54,810 nucleotides of DNA, taken from contig NZ_JAJLRA010000034.1 in the NCBI RefSeq assembly GCF_020991365.1, positions 1-54,810 on the forward strand, read 5' to 3'. Below the pieces are notes generated by a model. That model saw only the letters and a program-made list of their open reading frames with translations. It was not told where the DNA came from and searched no databases. How positions within the stretch are numbered: the first letter of the stretch is position 1; each line of letters begins with the position of its first letter. The translations under genes and the position numbers were made by a program. Positions 3,089 to 22,215 of this stretch are shown here, piece by piece. The DNA comes from Streptacidiphilus sp. ASG 303 (GTDB taxonomy: Bacteria; Actinomycetota; Actinomycetes; Streptomycetales; Streptomycetaceae).

Positions 3089-3544
3089 TCAGGAGGCGCC
3101 GTCGAGGGCTGCGGCCACGGCCTGCAGCCGGCCGAGGGCGTGCGCCGCCCCGAGCCCGTCCAGGTAGTCGCGGACGTGGACGAGCAGGCCGCCACGGACG
3201 CGGAGCACCAGCACGCCGGGGAAGGCGAAGGGGCGGCCGTCCGGCTCCAGGGTCCCGGCGACGACCTGCTCGACGACGAGCACCTCGGGGTCGGCGCCCT
3301 CGTGGACGACGACGTCCCGGATCTCGCGCGGCCGGGCCGGGCTCGCGTCCCAGGCGGCCCGGTAGCCCGCCCGGACCTCCTCGCGCCCCTGGTGGCGCGC
3401 GGGCATGCCGGGGAAGGGGAACGGGAACTCGTGGACGGCGTCGGCCGCGTACAGGTCGGCGAGGTCGTCCGCGGACCGGTCGAGGACGGCCCGGTGGTAG
3501 CGGGCCAGGACCTCGCGCGGGGCGGAGCGGTCGGACTGCGGCAT
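3089..3544 (-). CDS. NTF2-like / SnoaL-fold protein
   Basis: A 151-residue protein of the nuclear-transport-factor-2-like fold. It has the typical opening helix (LARYHRAVLDRSADDLADLY), the aromatic AVHEFPFPFPGMPARHQGREEV segment seen in SnoaL-like and ketosteroid-isomerase-like proteins, and the strand EVLVVEQVVAGT. Family members are small cytoplasmic isomerases, hydrolases or ligand-binding proteins. No substrate can be assigned. The start at 3544 follows GGAG at a suitable distance. Confidence 0.8.
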   Translation of the reverse strand: MPQSDRSAPREVLARYHRAVLDRSADDLADLYAADAVHEFPFPFPGMPARHQGREEVRAGYRAAWDASPARPREIRDVVVHEGADPEVLVVEQVVAGTLEPDGRPFAFPGVLVLRVRGGLLVHVRDYLDGLGAAHALGRLQAVAAALDGAS

Positions 3545-3907
3545 CGCGGGCTCTCCGTTTCGCGGGTCGCCCCGGGGTGCCCGGGGCGTGGACGGGCGCC
3601 CCGGCCGCCGGGCCGGCGGGGCGGGAACGCCCCCGCCCGCCGGCCCGGCGGCGGGGCGGCGCATCCGGCAGGACGACGGGGCGCCCGCGGCGGTTCCCGG
3701 TGCCCCCGCCACACTTCCGGCCCCGGCCCGCGGAGGACCGGCGCGTCAGTGGAGGCCGGCGCACCGGCATGCACAGACAGGCACCGGCGGGCACCGGCCG
3801 GGGGCGGGCCGGGCGCGGCGGAGGAGCGGAGGATCCGGCGGGCCCGGCCCCGGACGTCCCGGCCGGACCGTGGCCGGACGCACCGGGCGTCGCCTATGCT
3901 TCCCCGC
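3545..3907. other. Divergent intergenic region with a strong palindrome
   Basis: This 363-base gap lies between the NTF2-like gene and the leader peptide. It contains a perfect 14-bp inverted repeat (3607-3620 with 3636-3649) whose loop can itself pair, so a long hairpin is possible. No convincing coding frame is seen. TATGCT at 3895-3900 lies 7 bases before the leader-peptide ATG and could be a -10 element of a near-leaderless transcript, but no clear -35 is visible. Confidence 0.5.
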
Positions 3908-3982
3908 ATGGTCATGCTCGTCAGCCGCCGCCACGTGGACCTGCTCCGCGTCGCCAGCGCCTCCTGTCGCCGCGGCGCCTGA
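3908..3982 (+). CDS. Short leader peptide (RRHVDLLRVASA type)
   Basis: A 24-codon ORF with the core SRRHVDLLRVASASCRR. This matches the recurrent Streptomyces 'putative leader peptide' family (R-RH-DL-RVASA-C), which I know mainly from positions upstream of sulfur, cysteine or transport genes. Such uORFs probably act in cis through ribosome behaviour at the Cys/Arg-rich end (here codons for S-C-R-R-G-A before TGA). It has no clear Shine-Dalgarno; a TATGCT hexamer 7 bases upstream suggests a nearly leaderless mRNA. It precedes the oxygenase gene by 149 bases. Confidence 0.8.
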   Translation: MVMLVSRRHVDLLRVASASCRRGA

Positions 3983-4131
3983 CCCCTCGCCCCGCCCGCA
4001 CGGGCGTCGCGCCTTCCCCTCCCTCCTCTCCACAGGACCGGTTCTGCCCCCGCGGCACCACCCGCGGCGGCAGCGCGTACGGCCACCGCCGGACCCCGCC
4101 GCGTCCCCGGACGACACCCGCTGGATGACCC

Positions 4132-5274
4132 ATGCCCGAGCAGTCGCACCCGTCCGCCCCCGCCGGACCCCCGAAGACCGCCCTCTCCCCCGCCGCGAAC
4201 CGGCCCGCGGCCGGCCCGTCCGTCGCGGACCTGCCCGTCGTGGACCTGCCCGTCGCGGACCTGCCCGTCGCGGACCTGCCCGTCGTGGACCTCTCCGCGG
4301 CGGACCGGGGTCCGCGGGAGCGGGCCCGGTTCCACGACGAGCTGCAGCGCGCAGCCCACGAGGTCGGCTTCTTCCACCTCGTCGGCCACGGCGTCGGCGC
4401 CGCCGAGACCGCCGCGCTCACGGACGCGGTCCGGGCGTTCTTCGCCCTCCCCGAGGCCGACCGCCTCGCCGTCTCCAACCTCCGCTCCCCGCACTTCCGC
4501 GGCTACACCCGGATCGGCGACGAGCGCACCGGCGGCAGCCGCGACTGGCGCGACCAGCTGGACGTCGGCGCCGAGCGCCCCGCCCGCGTGCCGGGCCCGG
4601 GCGAGCCGCCGTACTGGTGGCTGGAGGGCCCCAACCAGTGGCCCGCGGCCCTGCCGGAGCTGCGCGCCGCGGCCCTGGGATGGATCGACCGGCTGAGCAC
4701 GGTCGCCTCCCGGCTGCTGCACGAGCTGCTGGCCGCGATCGGCGCGCCGCCCGACTTCTACGACCCGGTCTTCGCCGAGCGGCCGCACCTGCACCTGAAG
4801 CTGGTCCGCTACCCGGGCCGCGCGCCCGACGGCGCCGACCAGGGGGTGGGCGCCCACAAGGACTACGGCTTCCTCACCCTGCTGCTCCAGGACGAGGTGG
4901 GCGGGCTCCAGGTGCAGGGGCCGGACGGCGCCTTCCTGGACGTGCCGCCCCTGCCGGGTGCGTTCGTGGTCAACCTGGGCGAGCTGCTGGAGGTGGCCAC
5001 GGACGGCTGGCTGCGGGCGACCAACCACCGCGTGGTGAGCCCGCCCGGCGGCCGGGAGCGGTTCTCGGTGCCGTTCTTCTACAACCCGCGCCTGGACGCG
5101 CGGATCGAGCCGCTGCCCTTCCCGCACGCCGGCCGCACTCCCGGCGCCACCCGGGACCCGGCGAACCCGCTCTTCGCCGAGTACGGCCTCAACGAGCTCA
5201 AGGGCTGGCTCCGCGCCCACCCGCAGGTGGCCGAGCGGCACCACCCGGGCCTGGCGGCGTCCTCCCGGGGCTGA
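4132..5274 (+). CDS. Isopenicillin N synthase-family 2OG/Fe(II)-type oxygenase
   Basis: A 380-residue cytoplasmic non-haem iron oxygenase. The N-terminal DIOX_N region (roughly 50-160) contains HEVGFFHLVGHGV. The double-stranded beta-helix core has the iron facial triad H242, D244 (GAHKDYGFLTLL) and H299 (TNHRVVSP), and the R310-x-S312 cosubstrate motif in RFSVPFFYNP. The family oxidises amino acids, flavonoids, peptides or small acids; the substrate is unknown. No NRPS or other beta-lactam genes are nearby, so penicillin synthesis is not implied. Residues 31-55 are five copies of VxDLPV encoded by a 15-bp tandem repeat. The gene may be controlled by the upstream leader peptide. Confidence 0.88.
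   Translation: MPEQSHPSAPAGPPKTALSPAANRPAAGPSVADLPVVDLPVADLPVADLPVVDLSAADRGPRERARFHDELQRAAHEVGFFHLVGHGVGAAETAALTDAVRAFFALPEADRLAVSNLRSPHFRGYTRIGDERTGGSRDWRDQLDVGAERPARVPGPGEPPYWWLEGPNQWPAALPELRAAALGWIDRLSTVASRLLHELLAAIGAPPDFYDPVFAERPHLHLKLVRYPGRAPDGADQGVGAHKDYGFLTLLLQDEVGGLQVQGPDGAFLDVPPLPGAFVVNLGELLEVATDGWLRATNHRVVSPPGGRERFSVPFFYNPRLDARIEPLPFPHAGRTPGATRDPANPLFAEYGLNELKGWLRAHPQVAERHHPGLAASSRG
4222..4296 (+). repeat. 15-bp coding tandem repeat, five units
   Basis: Units of gtcg(c/t)ggacctgccc start at 4222, 4237, 4252, 4267 and 4282. They add V-x-D-L-P pentapeptides in frame just ahead of the oxygenase fold. Only one such strand is expected in this family, so copies 2-5 look like slippage expansion. 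Confidence 0.9.
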
Positions 5275-5308
5275 GGCCCCGTCACGGGACCCGGTCCGGA
5301 GCCCCGGC

Positions 5309-5336
5309 CCGGGGAGCCGTACGACCGGCTCCCCGG
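5309..5336 (+). terminator. Terminator hairpin after oxygenase gene
   Basis: A perfect 11-bp stem, ccggggagccg at 5309-5319 with cggctccccgg at 5326-5336 and a 6-base loop, lies 35 bases past the oxygenase stop. There is no U-tract, which is usual in Streptomyces. Confidence 0.75.
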
Positions 5337-5675
5337 AGCCTCCGGGCGCCGCGGCGACCGGTGCCGCCCGGAGGCCGCGACCGCAGGCGGGCGGGGGCCC
5401 GCGCCTGGGCGCTTCCGGCGGGGCGGGGCGTCGGCGGATGACCGTGCGCGCCGCACCGGCCGACAGGGAGGCCCGTCACCGGAACTCCATGGGGACGGAG
5501 CACATGACGCGTTCATGAAAGGTGGATTCCGGGACCATGTCTCCCCCGCGGAGGGCGGTCGCATGATGCCTGACAGCCCGTCGGACGGCCGGGCGGAGGT
5601 GTCAGGCCCCCGCCCGGGCAGAGCCCCCTCACCGGACGGCGGGCCCACCCACCCCGCCCCCACCCGGAGCCGTCC
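5337..5675 (+). other. Promoter-side intergenic region of the esterase gene
   Basis: About 340 bases between the terminator and the secreted esterase start. A slightly A/T-richer patch with catgacgcgttcatgaaagg (5503-5522) contains an imperfect TGA-CGCG-TTCA dyad. It could be an operator or promoter element. No coding frame with gene-like composition is seen. Confidence 0.35.
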
Positions 5676-7178
5676 ATGGCACGTCCCACCACGCCCCGCG
5701 CCCCCAGACGACACCCTCTCGGCCGGCACTCTCTCGGCCGGCACCTGCGCCGCTGGACGACCGCCGCCCTCGGCACGCTCGCCCTCGCCGCAGGCATGGT
5801 CACCGCCGCACCGCAGGCCTCCGCCGCCGGGCTCACCCAGGTGAGCAGCTTCGGCAGCAACCCCGGCAACCTGGCGATGTACGAGTACGCGCCCGCCAAC
5901 CTGCCCAGCGGCGCGCCGCTGGTCGTCGCCCTGCACGGCTGCACGCAGAGCGCGCAGGCCTACTACGCGAACTCGGGCTGGGCGCAGTCCGCCGACAAGC
6001 TGGGCTTCGCCGTCGTCTTCCCCCAGACCAGCTCCTCCAACAACGCCCTGTCGTGCTTCAGCTGGTTCGACTCCGCCAAGAGCACCCGCGGCAAGGGCGA
6101 GGCGGCCTCGGTGAAGTCGATGGTCGACCACGCGGCCCAGCAGTACGGCTCGGACCGCGGCCGCGTCTTCGTCACCGGACTCTCCGCGGGCGGCGGCATG
6201 GCGGCCGACCTGCTGGCCGACTACCCGGACGTCTTCGCGGGCGGCTCGATCGCCTCCGGCATCCCGGCCCAGTGCGCCACGACCCAGAGCGCCGCGTCGA
6301 GCTGCCAGAACCAGAGCCAGAACCTCACCCCCGCGCAGTGGGGCGACAAGGTCCGCGCCTCCTACCCCGGCTGGACCGGCCCCTGGCCGCGCGTCGCGAT
6401 CTGGCAGGGCACCTCCGACACCACCGTCTACCCGGTCAACGCCACCGAGCTGCGCGACCAGTGGACGAACGTGTGGGGCATCGGCCAGACCGCCTCCGGT
6501 ACCCAGAGCCTCACCGGCGGCACCACGCTGAGCACGTACAACGACGGCTCGGGCAAACCGGCCGTCGAGCTCTACTCCATCTCCGGGATGGGCCACGGCC
6601 TGGCGGTCGACCCGGGCACCGCCGCCGACCAGTGCGGCGCGACCGGCGCGTACTTCCTCGACACCATCTGCTCCACCTACTACACGGCGAGGTTCTGGGG
6701 CCTCGACGGCTCCGGCGGGGGCGGCACCTCCTCCCTGCCGGCCCCGACCGGCCTGTCGGTCACCGGCACCACCGACACGACGGCCTCCCTGGGCTGGAAC
6801 GCCGTCAGCGGCGCTGCCTCGTACGCCGTCTACCGCAACGGCGCCAAGGTCGGCTCGACGACCTCGACCTCGTACACCGACACCGGCCTGGCCACCGGGA
6901 CCTCCTACAGCTACACCGTGGCGGCCGTGGACCCCTCCGGCGCCGCCGGGACGGCGTCCGCCGCCGTGAGCGCGACCACGACCGGCTACACCCCCACCTG
7001 CTTCACGGCCAGCAACTACGCCCAGACCACGGCCGGCCGCGCCCACCAGAACGGCGGCTACACGTACGCCAACGGGTCCAACCAGGCCATGGGCCTGTGG
7101 AACACCTTCACCGTCCACACCCTGGAGCAGACCTCGCCCGGCTACTACGTGATCGCCGACAGCGGCTGCCCCGCGTAG
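5676..7178 (+). CDS. Secreted PHB-depolymerase-family esterase with fibronectin III module
   Basis: A 500-residue extracellular esterase. An Arg-rich n-region, a hydrophobic core (TTAALGTLALAAGMVTAA) and cleavage near QASA-AG form a signal peptide; the paired arginines make Tat export possible. The catalytic domain (about 55-345) has VVALHGCTQSAQAYY near the oxyanion strand, nucleophile S170 in GLSAGGGM, a probable acid in WQGTSDTTV and the histidine in GMGHGL. An FN3 module follows after a Gly linker (about 350-440). The C-terminus (about 445-500) is a small Cys-containing domain with NGSNQAMGLWN that may bind substrate. The family cleaves short-chain polyhydroxyalkanoates or acetyl/feruloyl esters. 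Which polymer is used here is open. Confidence 0.88.
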   Translation: MARPTTPRAPRRHPLGRHSLGRHLRRWTTAALGTLALAAGMVTAAPQASAAGLTQVSSFGSNPGNLAMYEYAPANLPSGAPLVVALHGCTQSAQAYYANSGWAQSADKLGFAVVFPQTSSSNNALSCFSWFDSAKSTRGKGEAASVKSMVDHAAQQYGSDRGRVFVTGLSAGGGMAADLLADYPDVFAGGSIASGIPAQCATTQSAASSCQNQSQNLTPAQWGDKVRASYPGWTGPWPRVAIWQGTSDTTVYPVNATELRDQWTNVWGIGQTASGTQSLTGGTTLSTYNDGSGKPAVELYSISGMGHGLAVDPGTAADQCGATGAYFLDTICSTYYTARFWGLDGSGGGGTSSLPAPTGLSVTGTTDTTASLGWNAVSGAASYAVYRNGAKVGSTTSTSYTDTGLATGTSYSYTVAAVDPSGAAGTASAAVSATTTGYTPTCFTASNYAQTTAGRAHQNGGYTYANGSNQAMGLWNTFTVHTLEQTSPGYYVIADSGCPA

Positions 7179-19890: not shown

Positions 19891-21153
19891 TCAGCGGCTC
19901 CTGGCGGCCGACCGCCGCCTCGGACGCCTCGCGGGCTCCTCCTCGGGCTCCTCTTCCTCCTCGGGCTCCTCCTCGTCGGCGGGCTCCTCTTCCTCCTCCT
20001 CGGGCTCCTCTTCCTCCTCCTCTTCCTCGGGCTCCTCGCCCTCCTCGTACTCGTCCTCGGGCTCCTCCTCGCCCTCCTCGGGCTCCTCTTCCTCCTCCTC
20101 TTCCTCGGGCTCCTCGGGCTCCTCTTCCTCCTCCCCCTCCTCGGGCTCCTCGCCCTCCTCGTACTCGTCCTCGGGCTCCTCCTCGCCCTCCTCCGGCTCC
20201 TCGCCCTCCGCGCCTTCCACGCCTTCCTCCGGCTCCTCGCCCTCCTCGGGCTCCTCGCCCTCCTCGTGCTCCTGCTTCTCCTCCTCGAGGGCGTCCTCGT
20301 GGGACTTGACGACCTCGCTGTCCCGGATCTCCCCGCGCCAGCCCTCGACCTCGTCGGGGTTGAGCAGGGTCTTCGTCATGACGTGCCGCCGGAAGTGCTT
20401 GAGCTCCAGGCGGGCCCGCCGGCCCTGGGCGCGCCAGATGTTGCCCGTGCGCTCGAAGAGGCCCTGGGGGTGGTACTCCAGGACCACCAGGATCCTCGTC
20501 AGGTTCGGGGTGACCTCGTGGAAGGTGACGGCGCCGTCCACGTGGCCCTTCGGGCCCTCGGACCGCCAGACGATCCGCTCGTCCGGGACCTGGTCGACGA
20601 TGGTCGCCTTCCAGGTGCGGTGGGACCAGAAGACCTGCGCCTTCCAGGTCGCCTTCTCGTCGGACTCGTGGTTGACGCCCTCCACCTTCTTCATGAACTC
20701 GGAGAACTGCCCGAACTCCGTCCACTGGTTGTAGGCGACACGCAGCGGGACGCCGACGTCGATGTCCTCGACGATGTTCGTCACCTTCACCTTCTTGCCG
20801 CCTCCGCCCTTCCCCCCGCCGCCGCCCCCGCCCCCGAAGGCCTGCTTGACCTTGTCCTTGATACCGCCCGCCCCGGCCCCCAGGGCGGCCCGCAGCGGCG
20901 ACTTGCCCTCGGCGATGCTCTTGCCGCCCCTGAGCGCGGCCTTCAGACCCGGGTTGTCGGCCTTCTCCGCGTAGTCGGTGAGGCGGTCGGTGATGCCACC
21001 CATCCTGTCGGTCGCCGCGGAGACCGCCCGCTCCCCGAGGGCGGACATGACGTTCTGGGCCTGCTCACGCAGGCGGTCGGTCGGCAGCTCCTCGGCGATC
21101 CGGCCCAGTCCGCCGGACGCGCCGCTCTTCTCGCCCTCCGCCACGGCCGTCAC
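19891..21153 (-). CDS. gvpZ: GvpZ-like SRPBCC-domain protein with long acidic tail
   Basis: A 420-residue protein corresponding to the SRPBCC/cyclase-like gvpZ of Streptomyces gas-vesicle clusters. Residues 1-115 are Ala/Gly-rich helices ending in a poly-Gly linker. Residues 118-270 form a START-like (SRPBCC) domain: IVEDIDVGVPLRVAYNQWTE, FMKKVEGVNHES, then RTWKATIVDQVPDERIVWRS and VTFHEVTPNLTRI. The tail (about 290-405) is almost entirely Glu with Pro/Gly (EEGEEPEE units) and ends in an Arg-rich patch. The start is GTG 21153, overlapping the gvpY stop. In the S. coelicolor arrangement I remember, gvpY/gvpZ lie inside the main operon, whereas here they run opposite to it. Confidence 0.82.
   Translation of the reverse strand: MTAVAEGEKSGASGGLGRIAEELPTDRLREQAQNVMSALGERAVSAATDRMGGITDRLTDYAEKADNPGLKAALRGGKSIAEGKSPLRAALGAGAGGIKDKVKQAFGGGGGGGGKGGGGKKVKVTNIVEDIDVGVPLRVAYNQWTEFGQFSEFMKKVEGVNHESDEKATWKAQVFWSHRTWKATIVDQVPDERIVWRSEGPKGHVDGAVTFHEVTPNLTRILVVLEYHPQGLFERTGNIWRAQGRRARLELKHFRRHVMTKTLLNPDEVEGWRGEIRDSEVVKSHEDALEEEKQEHEEGEEPEEGEEPEEGVEGAEGEEPEEGEEEPEDEYEEGEEPEEGEEEEEPEEPEEEEEEEEPEEGEEEPEDEYEEGEEPEEEEEEEEPEEEEEEPADEEEPEEEEEPEEEPARRPRRRSAARSR
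19921..20290 (-). repeat. Glu-rich coding repeat in gvpZ
   Basis: On the plus strand this is an array of ctc/ctcgggctc triplet and 9-mer units. On the coding strand it gives EEGEEPEE and EPEDEYEEGEEPEE repeats. The block containing gtactcgtcctcgggctc occurs twice (about 20047 and 20161), indicating a duplicated segment of about 114 bases. Confidence 0.85.
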
Positions 21154-21896
21154 CTCCCGCGCCGGGGCGCCGCGGACCGCGCGGCGGTCTTCTTGGCCGT
21201 ACGGCCGGCGGTCTTCTTCGCCGCCGCCTTGCGCGGCTCGGCCTTCTTGGCCGCAGCCTTCTTCGCTGCCGCCTTCTTGGCGACGGCCTTCTTGGCGGCG
21301 CCCTTCCTGACCGGACCGCCGGCGCCCTCCCCCTCGCCCTCACGCCCGGCCCCGCGCCTGCCGCGGCGTGCCTTGGGCGCCCGCTCGGGCTCCTCTTCCT
21401 CCTCCTCGGGCTCCTCCTCCTCGGGCTCCTCCTCGGCCTCGGCGCCCTCTTCCTCCTCCGACTCCTCTTCCTCCTCTTCCTCCTCGGGTTCCTCCTCCTC
21501 GGCCTCGGCGCCCTCTTCCTCCTCCGGCTCCTCTTCCTCCTCGTACTCCTCCGGCTCCTCCTCGTACTCCTCTTCCTCCTCGGCGGGCTTCTTCCCGGCC
21601 CGCAGGAGGTCGGCGCGCTCCTGGAGGCGGTCGCTGAGGCTCTCCACCTGGCGGGTGGCGGCGGCCATCGCGGCCTTCTTGCCCGCCTCGACGACCTGGC
21701 CGCGGACGACACCGACGAGCTGCTCGACCTGCGGCGAGGACTTCAGGAGGTCCCCCGCCAGCGCTCCGGGCCCGGCGGACTGCCCGAGCTTCCTGCCCGC
21801 GGCCATCCCGGCGAGTGCGAGGACCCAGCGGGTCTTGTGGAAGCGGCCGAGCACGTAGCCCGCCGCCAGGCCGGCGGCAAGTGTGGTGTTCTTCAT
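21150..21896 (-). CDS. gvpY: GvpY-like gas-vesicle accessory protein
   Basis: A 248-residue protein matching the Streptomyces gvpY type, often mis-named 'DNA primase' in databases. It begins MKNTTLAAGLAAGYVLGRFH followed by a hydrophobic WVLALAGMAAG segment and helices to about residue 100. Residues 105-178 are a Glu-rich acidic block and 195-245 a Lys/Ala block (AAKKAAAKKA) like a histone H1 tail. The acidic-then-basic layout suggests a disordered region that could bind nucleic acid or neutralise charge. It precedes gvpZ with an overlapping stop/start. Confidence 0.8.
   Translation of the reverse strand: MKNTTLAAGLAAGYVLGRFHKTRWVLALAGMAAGRKLGQSAGPGALAGDLLKSSPQVEQLVGVVRGQVVEAGKKAAMAAATRQVESLSDRLQERADLLRAGKKPAEEEEEYEEEPEEYEEEEEPEEEEGAEAEEEEPEEEEEEEESEEEEGAEAEEEPEEEEPEEEEEEPERAPKARRGRRGAGREGEGEGAGGPVRKGAAKKAVAKKAAAKKAAAKKAEPRKAAAKKTAGRTAKKTAARSAAPRRGR
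21385..21595 (-). repeat. Glu-rich coding repeat in gvpY
   Basis: Repeated cctcctc/cgggctc units encode the acidic block, with EEEGAEAEEE occurring twice. The base pattern is the same as in gvpZ, which suggests a shared origin or similar slippage. Confidence 0.8.
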
Positions 21897-22215
21897 GACG
21901 GTGTCCCATCTGGCGCCCGGCCGCCCGGGCCGGGTCCGCGTGAGGGTGGTTCCGTAGCGCGTGGAGGGGCCGCACGGGAGAGGTGCGGTCGTCCGCGGGA
22001 ACGGCGGAGCCGCTGCGGGGCGCGTGTACCGCGCCGGTCCGCCCGGTCCCAGCCGTGCACGGTCGGCGGCGCGTCGGGTCCGGAGACCGGTCCGCCGGGG
22101 CCGCACCGGGGGGTGGCGGCGTGTCAGAGTCCTCTCCTCCCATGCTCCACCCGGGGGACGGGGGCCGCACCTCGGGTGGCGGCGCGGGCGGGGCCCGGGC
22201 CCCGGGGAACGGGAC
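21897..22215. other. Intergenic region upstream of gvpY
   Basis: About 320 bases holding the promoter of the leftward gvpY-gvpZ pair. I see no gene and no distinct operator. The right end holds the terminator of the MFS gene that reads towards it. Confidence 0.4.

Follow-up and report, generated by a model that had tools for sequence, protein, structure and literature searches.

Attenuation at the tnaC leader of Escherichia coli is Rho-dependent, and the ribosome halts there at the leader's own stop codon with free tryptophan. The title of a 2014 study by Lyubetsky et al. reportedly infers sulfur roles from gene regulation, and the leader families Ms4527A (NF042936) and Ms5788A (NF042933) are presumably the mycobacterial families of Canestrari et al. 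2020. Mycobacterial leaders with a run of Cys codons have been described as cysteine-responsive attenuators that act via ribosome stalling (Canestrari 2020, as cited in the accessible parts of PMC13236596 and PMC9031893). Cysteine leader peptides ahead of actinobacterial cys and cbs genes were predicted in 2005; in the relevant sections of that study they are terminator-less and Rho is proposed (Seliverstov et al. 2005, PMC1262725). Given these cysteine-responsive mycobacterial relatives and the early actinobacterial predictions, it was too pessimistic to call the leader family 'mechanistically obscure', as a first-pass annotation of the DNA studied here had done. The eight leader peptides listed in the accessible part of an RNA-seq reannotation of S. 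lividans include none with the motif found here (PMC8079986). Within the literature searched, by queries that did not include the oxygenase family by name and touched the codon indirectly, no mention was found of the leader-oxygenase pair or of the UGU rule that are described below.

The locus lies within a stretch of 54,810 nucleotides from Streptacidiphilus sp. ASG 303, and this whole stretch is referred to as the window. The leader ORF MVMLVSRRHVDLLRVASASCRRGA on the forward strand (3908-3982; start ATG 3908, stop TGA 3980-3982) consists of 24 codons. It scored 37.7 bits against the NCBIfam model NF042934 (cis_reg_atten, 'putative leader peptide'; cut-off 27 bits, E 1.1e-9) and a six-frame search of the complete genome with the family model recovered it at E 1.0e-7. 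The cut-offs of the two mycobacterial models, both 45 bits, were missed by the window leader (29 bits for NF042936 and 18.3 bits for NF042933). The peptide holds one Cys and is without a run of Cys codons near its C-terminal end. We numbered positions relative to the codon of Asp11 (D11; 3938-3940, forward strand), which is accompanied by conserved Arg residues at D-4 and D+3. In this numbering the codon of Cys20, a UGU (3965-3967, forward strand), occupies D+9, and on the basis of the codon counts in relatives it is the proposed stall codon. The label 'RVASA-type', which the leader had been given earlier, describes the window (RVASASC) and suits the group less well, as most orthologous leaders read RVTSMSC, RVTSMGC or RVTTMSC; RVASASC is a minority form common to the window, L027 and L108, and L028 reads RVASAIC. 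Elsewhere in the window, positions 20001-22000 showed an AT skew of -0.436 and the lowest GC content among the 2-kb bins (0.722).

The association between leader and oxygenase was evaluated in 110 oxygenase loci (L026-L135), made up of the best 80 of 238 and the 30 best loci, window included, from the same family, at least six of the sequences being duplicates. A leader of the same kind was found upstream of the oxygenase in 99 of these loci (window included), with 93 distinct leader sequences; ten loci were without one. The remaining locus (L107) has a leader that contains two Cys residues, with UGU at D+9. The presence of a 24-residue leader ahead of the oxygenase was thereby confirmed, and the pair proved to be kept in relatives. 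The predicted start of the transcript appears to be conserved as well. A -10-like hexamer, TATGCT (3895-3900, forward strand), precedes the leader ATG by 7 nt, and by eye no good -35 was seen upstream of the leader; a promoter and terminator scan of 3500-5700 yielded no matches and an Rfam scan of the window yielded 0 at gathering thresholds. A TANNNT element is located 6 or 7 nt upstream of the in-frame ATG or GTG in 92 of 92 leaders, versus 0 of 92 in a control shifted to 40 nt upstream. Considering this placement of the promoter, a leaderless transcript is a conserved prediction, and the leaderless start noted before is thus backed by the sequence alone. GC-rich DNA yields many spurious ORFs, and on that ground the leader could be a chance ORF or an annotation artefact; the probability of this is negligible, as it is contradicted by the two E-values, the conservation of the pair and the invariable promoter placement.

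The oxygenase (4132-5274, forward strand; 380 amino acids) starts 149 nt after the leader stop. Its start codon (ATG 4132) is preceded by a weak GCTGGAT element (together 4120-4134, forward strand), and a GGAGG-type Shine-Dalgarno sequence is absent. Both Pfam domains scored over cut-off (DIOX_N, 103.5 versus 27.3 bits; 2OG-FeII_Oxy, 86.5 versus 23 bits), and alignment to a solved relative showed that the HxD...H metal ligands (H242, D244 and H299) and the RxS element (R310-x-S312) are present, as expected for a 2OG-Fe(II)-type oxygenase. Among solved chains, the nearest are 9ovh, annotated as an ethylene-forming enzyme, and 6jyv, a probable iron/ascorbate oxidoreductase of the same oxygenase family (E 9.1e-53) whose catalytic residues align with those of the window oxygenase. 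Judging from the matching name, we take 6jyv to be PA4191 of Pseudomonas aeruginosa, an organism of another phylum than Streptacidiphilus, and we know of no tested function for it. No chain named isopenicillin N synthase occurred among the 51 distinct solved sequences at E <= 1e-10, and the designation 'IPNS-like' from the first-pass annotation therefore fits at the domain level only. Relatives of the oxygenase at E <= 1e-60 were present in 190 of the 394 sampled genomes of the bacterial family. Around five copies of a 15-nt unit at 4220-4292 encode VADLP/VVDLP repeats in the N-terminus of the oxygenase.

To specify the company that the leader family keeps, NF042934 was searched in a wider set of genomes. 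It scored over cut-off in 25 of 25 Streptomycetaceae genomes, in 78 of 118 class-level genomes (8 of them belonging to that family) and in none of the 14 controls, with weak matches at E <= 10 in 10 of the latter. The Streptomycetaceae sample comprised 136 loci, 132 of them parsed, and represents the best part of a longer match list, so that weak members are under-represented; the class-level sample comprised 69 loci, four of them unparsed. The genes downstream of the 132 leaders, chosen by a script that seems to have misassigned at least one of them (L186), fell into 29 clusters, each labelled after one representative. Cysteine synthase is found most often (24), followed by a rhodanese/3-mercaptopyruvate sulfurtransferase-like protein (22, label below cut-off), NIR_SIR (20; reductases of nitrite or sulfite, for which nitrite reductase was the top NCBIfam name, below cut-off) and a cysteine dioxygenase-like protein (8). 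SfnG, SsuE and an NtaA/DmoA-like monooxygenase (just below cut-off) account for 6 each, MetY, arylsulfotransferase and an SfnB/DszC-like protein (far below cut-off) for 3 each, the window-type oxygenase for 2 and SBP56 for 1. Transport proteins make up 15 and unlabelled or other genes 13. Thus, 102 of the 132 downstream genes are of a sulfur type, or 76 when the ambiguous NIR_SIR (20) and NtaA/DmoA (6) genes are set aside; for some members, such as a GntR regulator, GNAT enzymes and an FAD oxidoreductase, a fit is not obvious. With these numbers, and with 15 more genes related to transport, the clearly wider role that had been offered as an alternative for the leader family is so far unsupported.

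The genome of the window itself contains ten leaders, seven recovered at E <= 1e-4 in the six-frame search and three weak ones accepted by eye, and these precede members of the CysM, rhodanese, NIR_SIR, SfnG, SsuE and MetY clusters, among others. Five of them lie within around 11 kb, between 11 and 23 kb of one contig (L222, C120:8000-27000), in front of members of the MetY, SfnG and SsuE clusters, a GNAT and a GST-like gene; this stretch is perhaps a sulfur-scavenging island. In two other genomes, leaders close to the oxygenase type (RVTSMAC; L213 and L214) are located ahead of MetY. Divergent pairs of leader matches around 500 bp apart were observed at G020:C2:180773-181354, G004:C104:70387-70916, G018:C35:112310-112916 and G021:C103:68795-69407.

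The oxygenase loci that lack a leader provide a separate view of the gene's context, as nine of the ten have sulfur-gene company in whole or in part (L105 is the exception). In three of them (L086, L087 and L089) the oxygenase is found, by eye, downstream of a solute-binding protein, a permease, an ATPase and a homocysteine S-methyltransferase on the same strand, with a divergent IclR-like gene adjoining. The labels for this gene set rest on the extended version of the first locus (L363), which gave SBP_bac_3, BPD_transp_1, ABC_tran and S-methyl_trans, and a score for NF007020 of 353.8 bits versus a cut-off of 215. Four further loci (L092, L093, L096 and L104) have two or more of these clusters in common, L094 has the solute-binding cluster only, and in L106 the oxygenase is flanked by MetX/MetY and a second MetY-like gene. 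A strict motif search of L363, L364 and L365 recovered no correctly oriented leader heading the ABC-transporter genes of the three loci. The ten genomes with a leaderless oxygenase contain 11-15 NF042934 matches each at E <= 0.01. Beside the leader-bearing oxygenases no sulfur genes were evident by eye among the most frequent neighbor clusters of the best-80 loci, which is the set that this survey covered; the exceptions are the clusters that come from the leaderless loci. Considering that the pair is conserved, that the leader family is mostly found on sulfur-type genes and that nine of the ten leaderless orthologs keep sulfur-gene company at least in part, a function of the oxygenase in the metabolism of sulfur or of sulfur amino acids is probable. 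The original suggestion of a role in sulfur or amino-acid metabolism is upheld as probable, and the interpretation as a whole was borne out in part. In this way a previously uncharacterized oxygenase can provisionally be assigned to sulfur metabolism with a list of substrates to try; likely candidates would be sulfonium compounds, S-methylmethionine and derivatives of methionine or cysteine.

An unexpected feature of the leaders concerns the codon at D+9. Here, Cys is encoded by UGU in 92 of 92 oxygenase leaders (L103, with a broken oxygenase match, was left out of the codon counts), in 127 of 129 Streptomycetaceae leaders (two of which, including that of the window, are also among the 92) and in all 62 leaders that come from 26 other families, some of these being near duplicates. 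Three leaders with a stop at D+9 were excluded from the 129; they belong to the cysteine-synthase cluster (L153, L184 and L216, with TAG, TGA and TAG, respectively), and all other parsed leaders have a Cys at this position. The two exceptions to the rule (L007 and L238) both have UGU at another Cys. As a background, UGU accounts for 12 of 217 Cys codons in the genes behind the leaders and for 35 of 372 in neighboring ORFs that are conserved. Upstream of D+9 the Cys codons are mostly UGC, as seen for D+2 (UGC 47 and UGU 5 in the Streptomycetaceae, 31 and 3 in the 26 other families) and D+7 (16 and 0, and 23 and 5, respectively). Downstream they are mixed, both at D+10 (UGU 7 and UGC 7; UGU 3 and UGC 4) and at D+11 (UGU 1 and UGC 6; UGU 4 and UGC 5). 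Where both D+2 and D+9 are Cys, UGC is followed by UGU in 44 of 49 and 31 of 34 leaders, the remainder using UGU twice. Retrieval bias for the codon was dismissed, as the leaders were found by a protein model that is blind to codons, and an extended nucleotide motif that includes the UGU is not favored, as the flanking bases vary. Other codons deviate as well: all 92 oxygenase leaders use GTG for the Val before the Asp (3935-3937 in the window), whereas in the oxygenase itself no single codon exceeds 71% in any conserved Val column, and the leaders use ACG for Thr at D+5 in 77 of 87 cases and CGA directly after the Cys in 37 of 92, contrary to the usage of the oxygenase genes.

Arg was found at both D-4 and D+3 in 197 of 197 parsed leaders, a conservation of the Arg/Asp/Arg pattern that is inflated by the fact that NF042934 favors such peptides, that parsing was conditional on the Asp and admitted only seven to nine letters at D+3, and that eight loci were unparsed. 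Because the Arg codons vary, these two residues are, to go by the alignments, under constraint at the level of the peptide. This leads to an alternative in which the nascent chain, with its Arg, Asp and Arg, arrests the ribosome with the UGU of D+9 in the A site, so that ribosome and peptide together would be the sensor and the ligand perhaps something other than Cys-tRNA. It would account for the fact that a Cys at D+2, found as second Cys in 52 of the 132 leaders, does not spoil the switch, which is a difficulty for the attenuator model proposed below: if a simple shortage of Cys-tRNA sufficed, these leaders should halt at D+2 first. Also in line with such an arrest, the constraint at D+9 acts on the codon, and past the Cys the peptides differ in length and composition. 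Set against it is the inflated conservation of the three residues. We regard arrest by the nascent chain as somewhat unlikely, and as the main alternative to cysteine-responsive stalling at UGU. A combination of the two is conceivable, and we put it forward tentatively: throughout the class, a fixed Arg/Asp/Arg nascent peptide and one wobble-read UGU Cys codon at D+9, with earlier Cys codons kept as UGC, might form a shared stall site, i.e. a peptide-assisted, codon-specific sensor of the cysteine supply, whose presence would mark an unknown downstream gene, as in the case of the present oxygenase, as belonging to sulfur metabolism. For leaders with a single Cys, the UGU rule offers a one-base test of the mechanism, since a change in regulation upon replacing UGU by UGC would make the codon itself part of the sensor.

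The same data bear on the possibility that the 24-residue peptide itself serves as a product, either modified by the oxygenase or acting in trans as a small peptide like peTrpL. A conserved, Cys-containing small peptide does adjoin an oxygenase here, and trans-acting leader peptides exist, as described in the consulted part of PMC7298713. Nevertheless, the same type of peptide precedes genes of 29 different clusters, the Cys is constrained as a codon and the C-terminal length varies, which makes a peptide product highly improbable.

The RNA that follows the leader stop is C-rich and G-poor (3983-4032 in the window, forward strand), and its composition in the 92-locus set and the window makes it a candidate Rho-loading (rut-like) region. 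Over the 92 loci, the 50 nt 3' of the leader stop contain a mean of 0.53 C and 0.21 G, and the C-over-G skew exceeds 0.2 in 98.9% of the cases, versus 20.7% after the oxygenase stop; in the wider sample of 132 leaders the figure is 62%. Such a stretch would suit Rho, and no intrinsic terminator was found between 3500 and 5700.

Translational attenuation would be another way to couple leader and oxygenase, and it has been proposed for the mycobacterial polycysteine leaders (as cited in the accessible parts of PMC13236596 and PMC9031893). Here, RNA of the leader or 5' region would sequester the ribosome-binding site of the oxygenase, which a ribosome stalled at UGU would free. RNAalifold analysis of the leader-to-oxygenase region pointed to structured RNA in three groups (z -5.3, -5.9 and -4.6), but gave 0.13 for a fourth group and -1.3 for all 92 sequences together. 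Two helices, P1 and P3, showed covariation that was matched by 0 of 500 shuffles on four of five measures and by 21 of 500 on the fifth. They had, however, been picked by eye on the very alignment on which they were tested, which holds 41 of the 92 sequences and left out 30 of the 33 of the signal-less group, together with 12 of the 18 and 9 of the 24 sequences in two further groups; automatic folding of this alignment gave 3 pairs only. Of the two, P3 is seen in the window as the hairpin CGGC-CACC-GCCG (4080-4091, forward strand), and P1 is not formed there. By-eye complementarity between GUCCGC of the leader and a GYGGAC element before the oxygenase ATG prompted a folding test and is itself not claimed. 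In this test, a simulated ribosome footprint at the UGU altered the energy needed to open the oxygenase start by 0.24 kcal/mol on average in native pairs versus 0.16 in swapped pairs; the corresponding values were 0.99 versus 0.42 kcal/mol for a footprint at the leader stop and -0.95 versus -0.27 for an early footprint. For stalling at UGU, native pairs thus had no advantage over swapped ones in freeing the start, whereas a ribosome at the leader stop released it somewhat more in native pairs; pairing between leader and ribosome-binding site was set aside as support for a release by stalling at UGU. Together with the uneven z-scores, the origin of P1 and P3 and the absence of P1 from the window, this renders translational attenuation doubtful, and in our judgement less probable than arrest by the nascent chain.

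We favor cysteine-responsive stalling at UGU coupled to Rho-type termination. As far as can be judged from comparative sequence data, it is on the whole probable that a cis-acting, cysteine-responsive leader-peptide attenuator controls an oxygenase of sulfur metabolism, or more specifically of sulfur scavenging, most likely through Rho-type termination. Transcription would start at the ATG of the leader, as suggested by the conserved -10 element, and ribosomes would translate the 24 residues. When Cys-tRNA is plentiful, the UGU would be passed and the leader finished, leaving the C-rich RNA after the stop exposed; the transcript would then end early, most likely by the action of Rho, or else the oxygenase start would stay folded away. 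When Cys-tRNA is scarce, the ribosome would halt with the UGU of position 20, which precedes the stop codon by 12 nt, in its A site. A ribosome footprint extends around 12 nt past the codon under translation, according to the consulted part of PMC4833913, and a ribosome halted at the UGU should consequently reach to about the leader stop and thereby only the edge of the C-rich stretch. In the proposed scheme this would allow the oxygenase to be made, which would then probably oxidize or cleave an organosulfur compound or a sulfur amino acid. Besides the leaders with a Cys at D+2, several observations weigh against the attenuator. A ribosome touching only the edge of the C-rich stretch poses a difficulty for the exclusion of Rho, the oxygenase start was not released in the folding analysis when the leader was blocked at UGU, no intrinsic terminator was found and the C-rich bias is weaker family-wide. 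The frequent neighbors of the leader-bearing oxygenases, which by eye are not evident sulfur genes, and the S. lividans list of leader peptides count on the same side.

The comparison with described leaders makes clear which elements are shared. Within NF042934 the window leader has the common Arg/Asp/Arg/Cys pattern, whereas the oxygenase-linked subgroup stands out by ending in RVTSMxC, RVTTMxC or RVASAxC and mostly contains a single Cys. The mycobacterial polycysteine leaders share the predicted leaderless start and the Cys near the end, and the poly-Cys leaders in our sample (L264, L266 and L267) have UGU at D+9 like the window leader; the mycobacterial ones differ by their Cys run, whereas the window leader has one Cys, falls below the cut-offs of their models and finds no support from folding for a release by stalling. 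The actinobacterial cys and cbs leaders, as far as the relevant sections of PMC1262725 go, resemble the present ones in the missing terminator, the pyrimidine-rich stretch and the idea of a tna-like role for Rho, but they contain Cys codons in runs, and that study describes their polyY motifs as not conserved, in contrast to the skew seen here in nearly all of the 92 loci. Finally, E. coli tnaC, which is named in the same sections, likewise combines a leader peptide with a subsequent candidate rut region; there the ribosome halts at the stop codon, whereas the halt proposed here would occur at an internal Cys codon.
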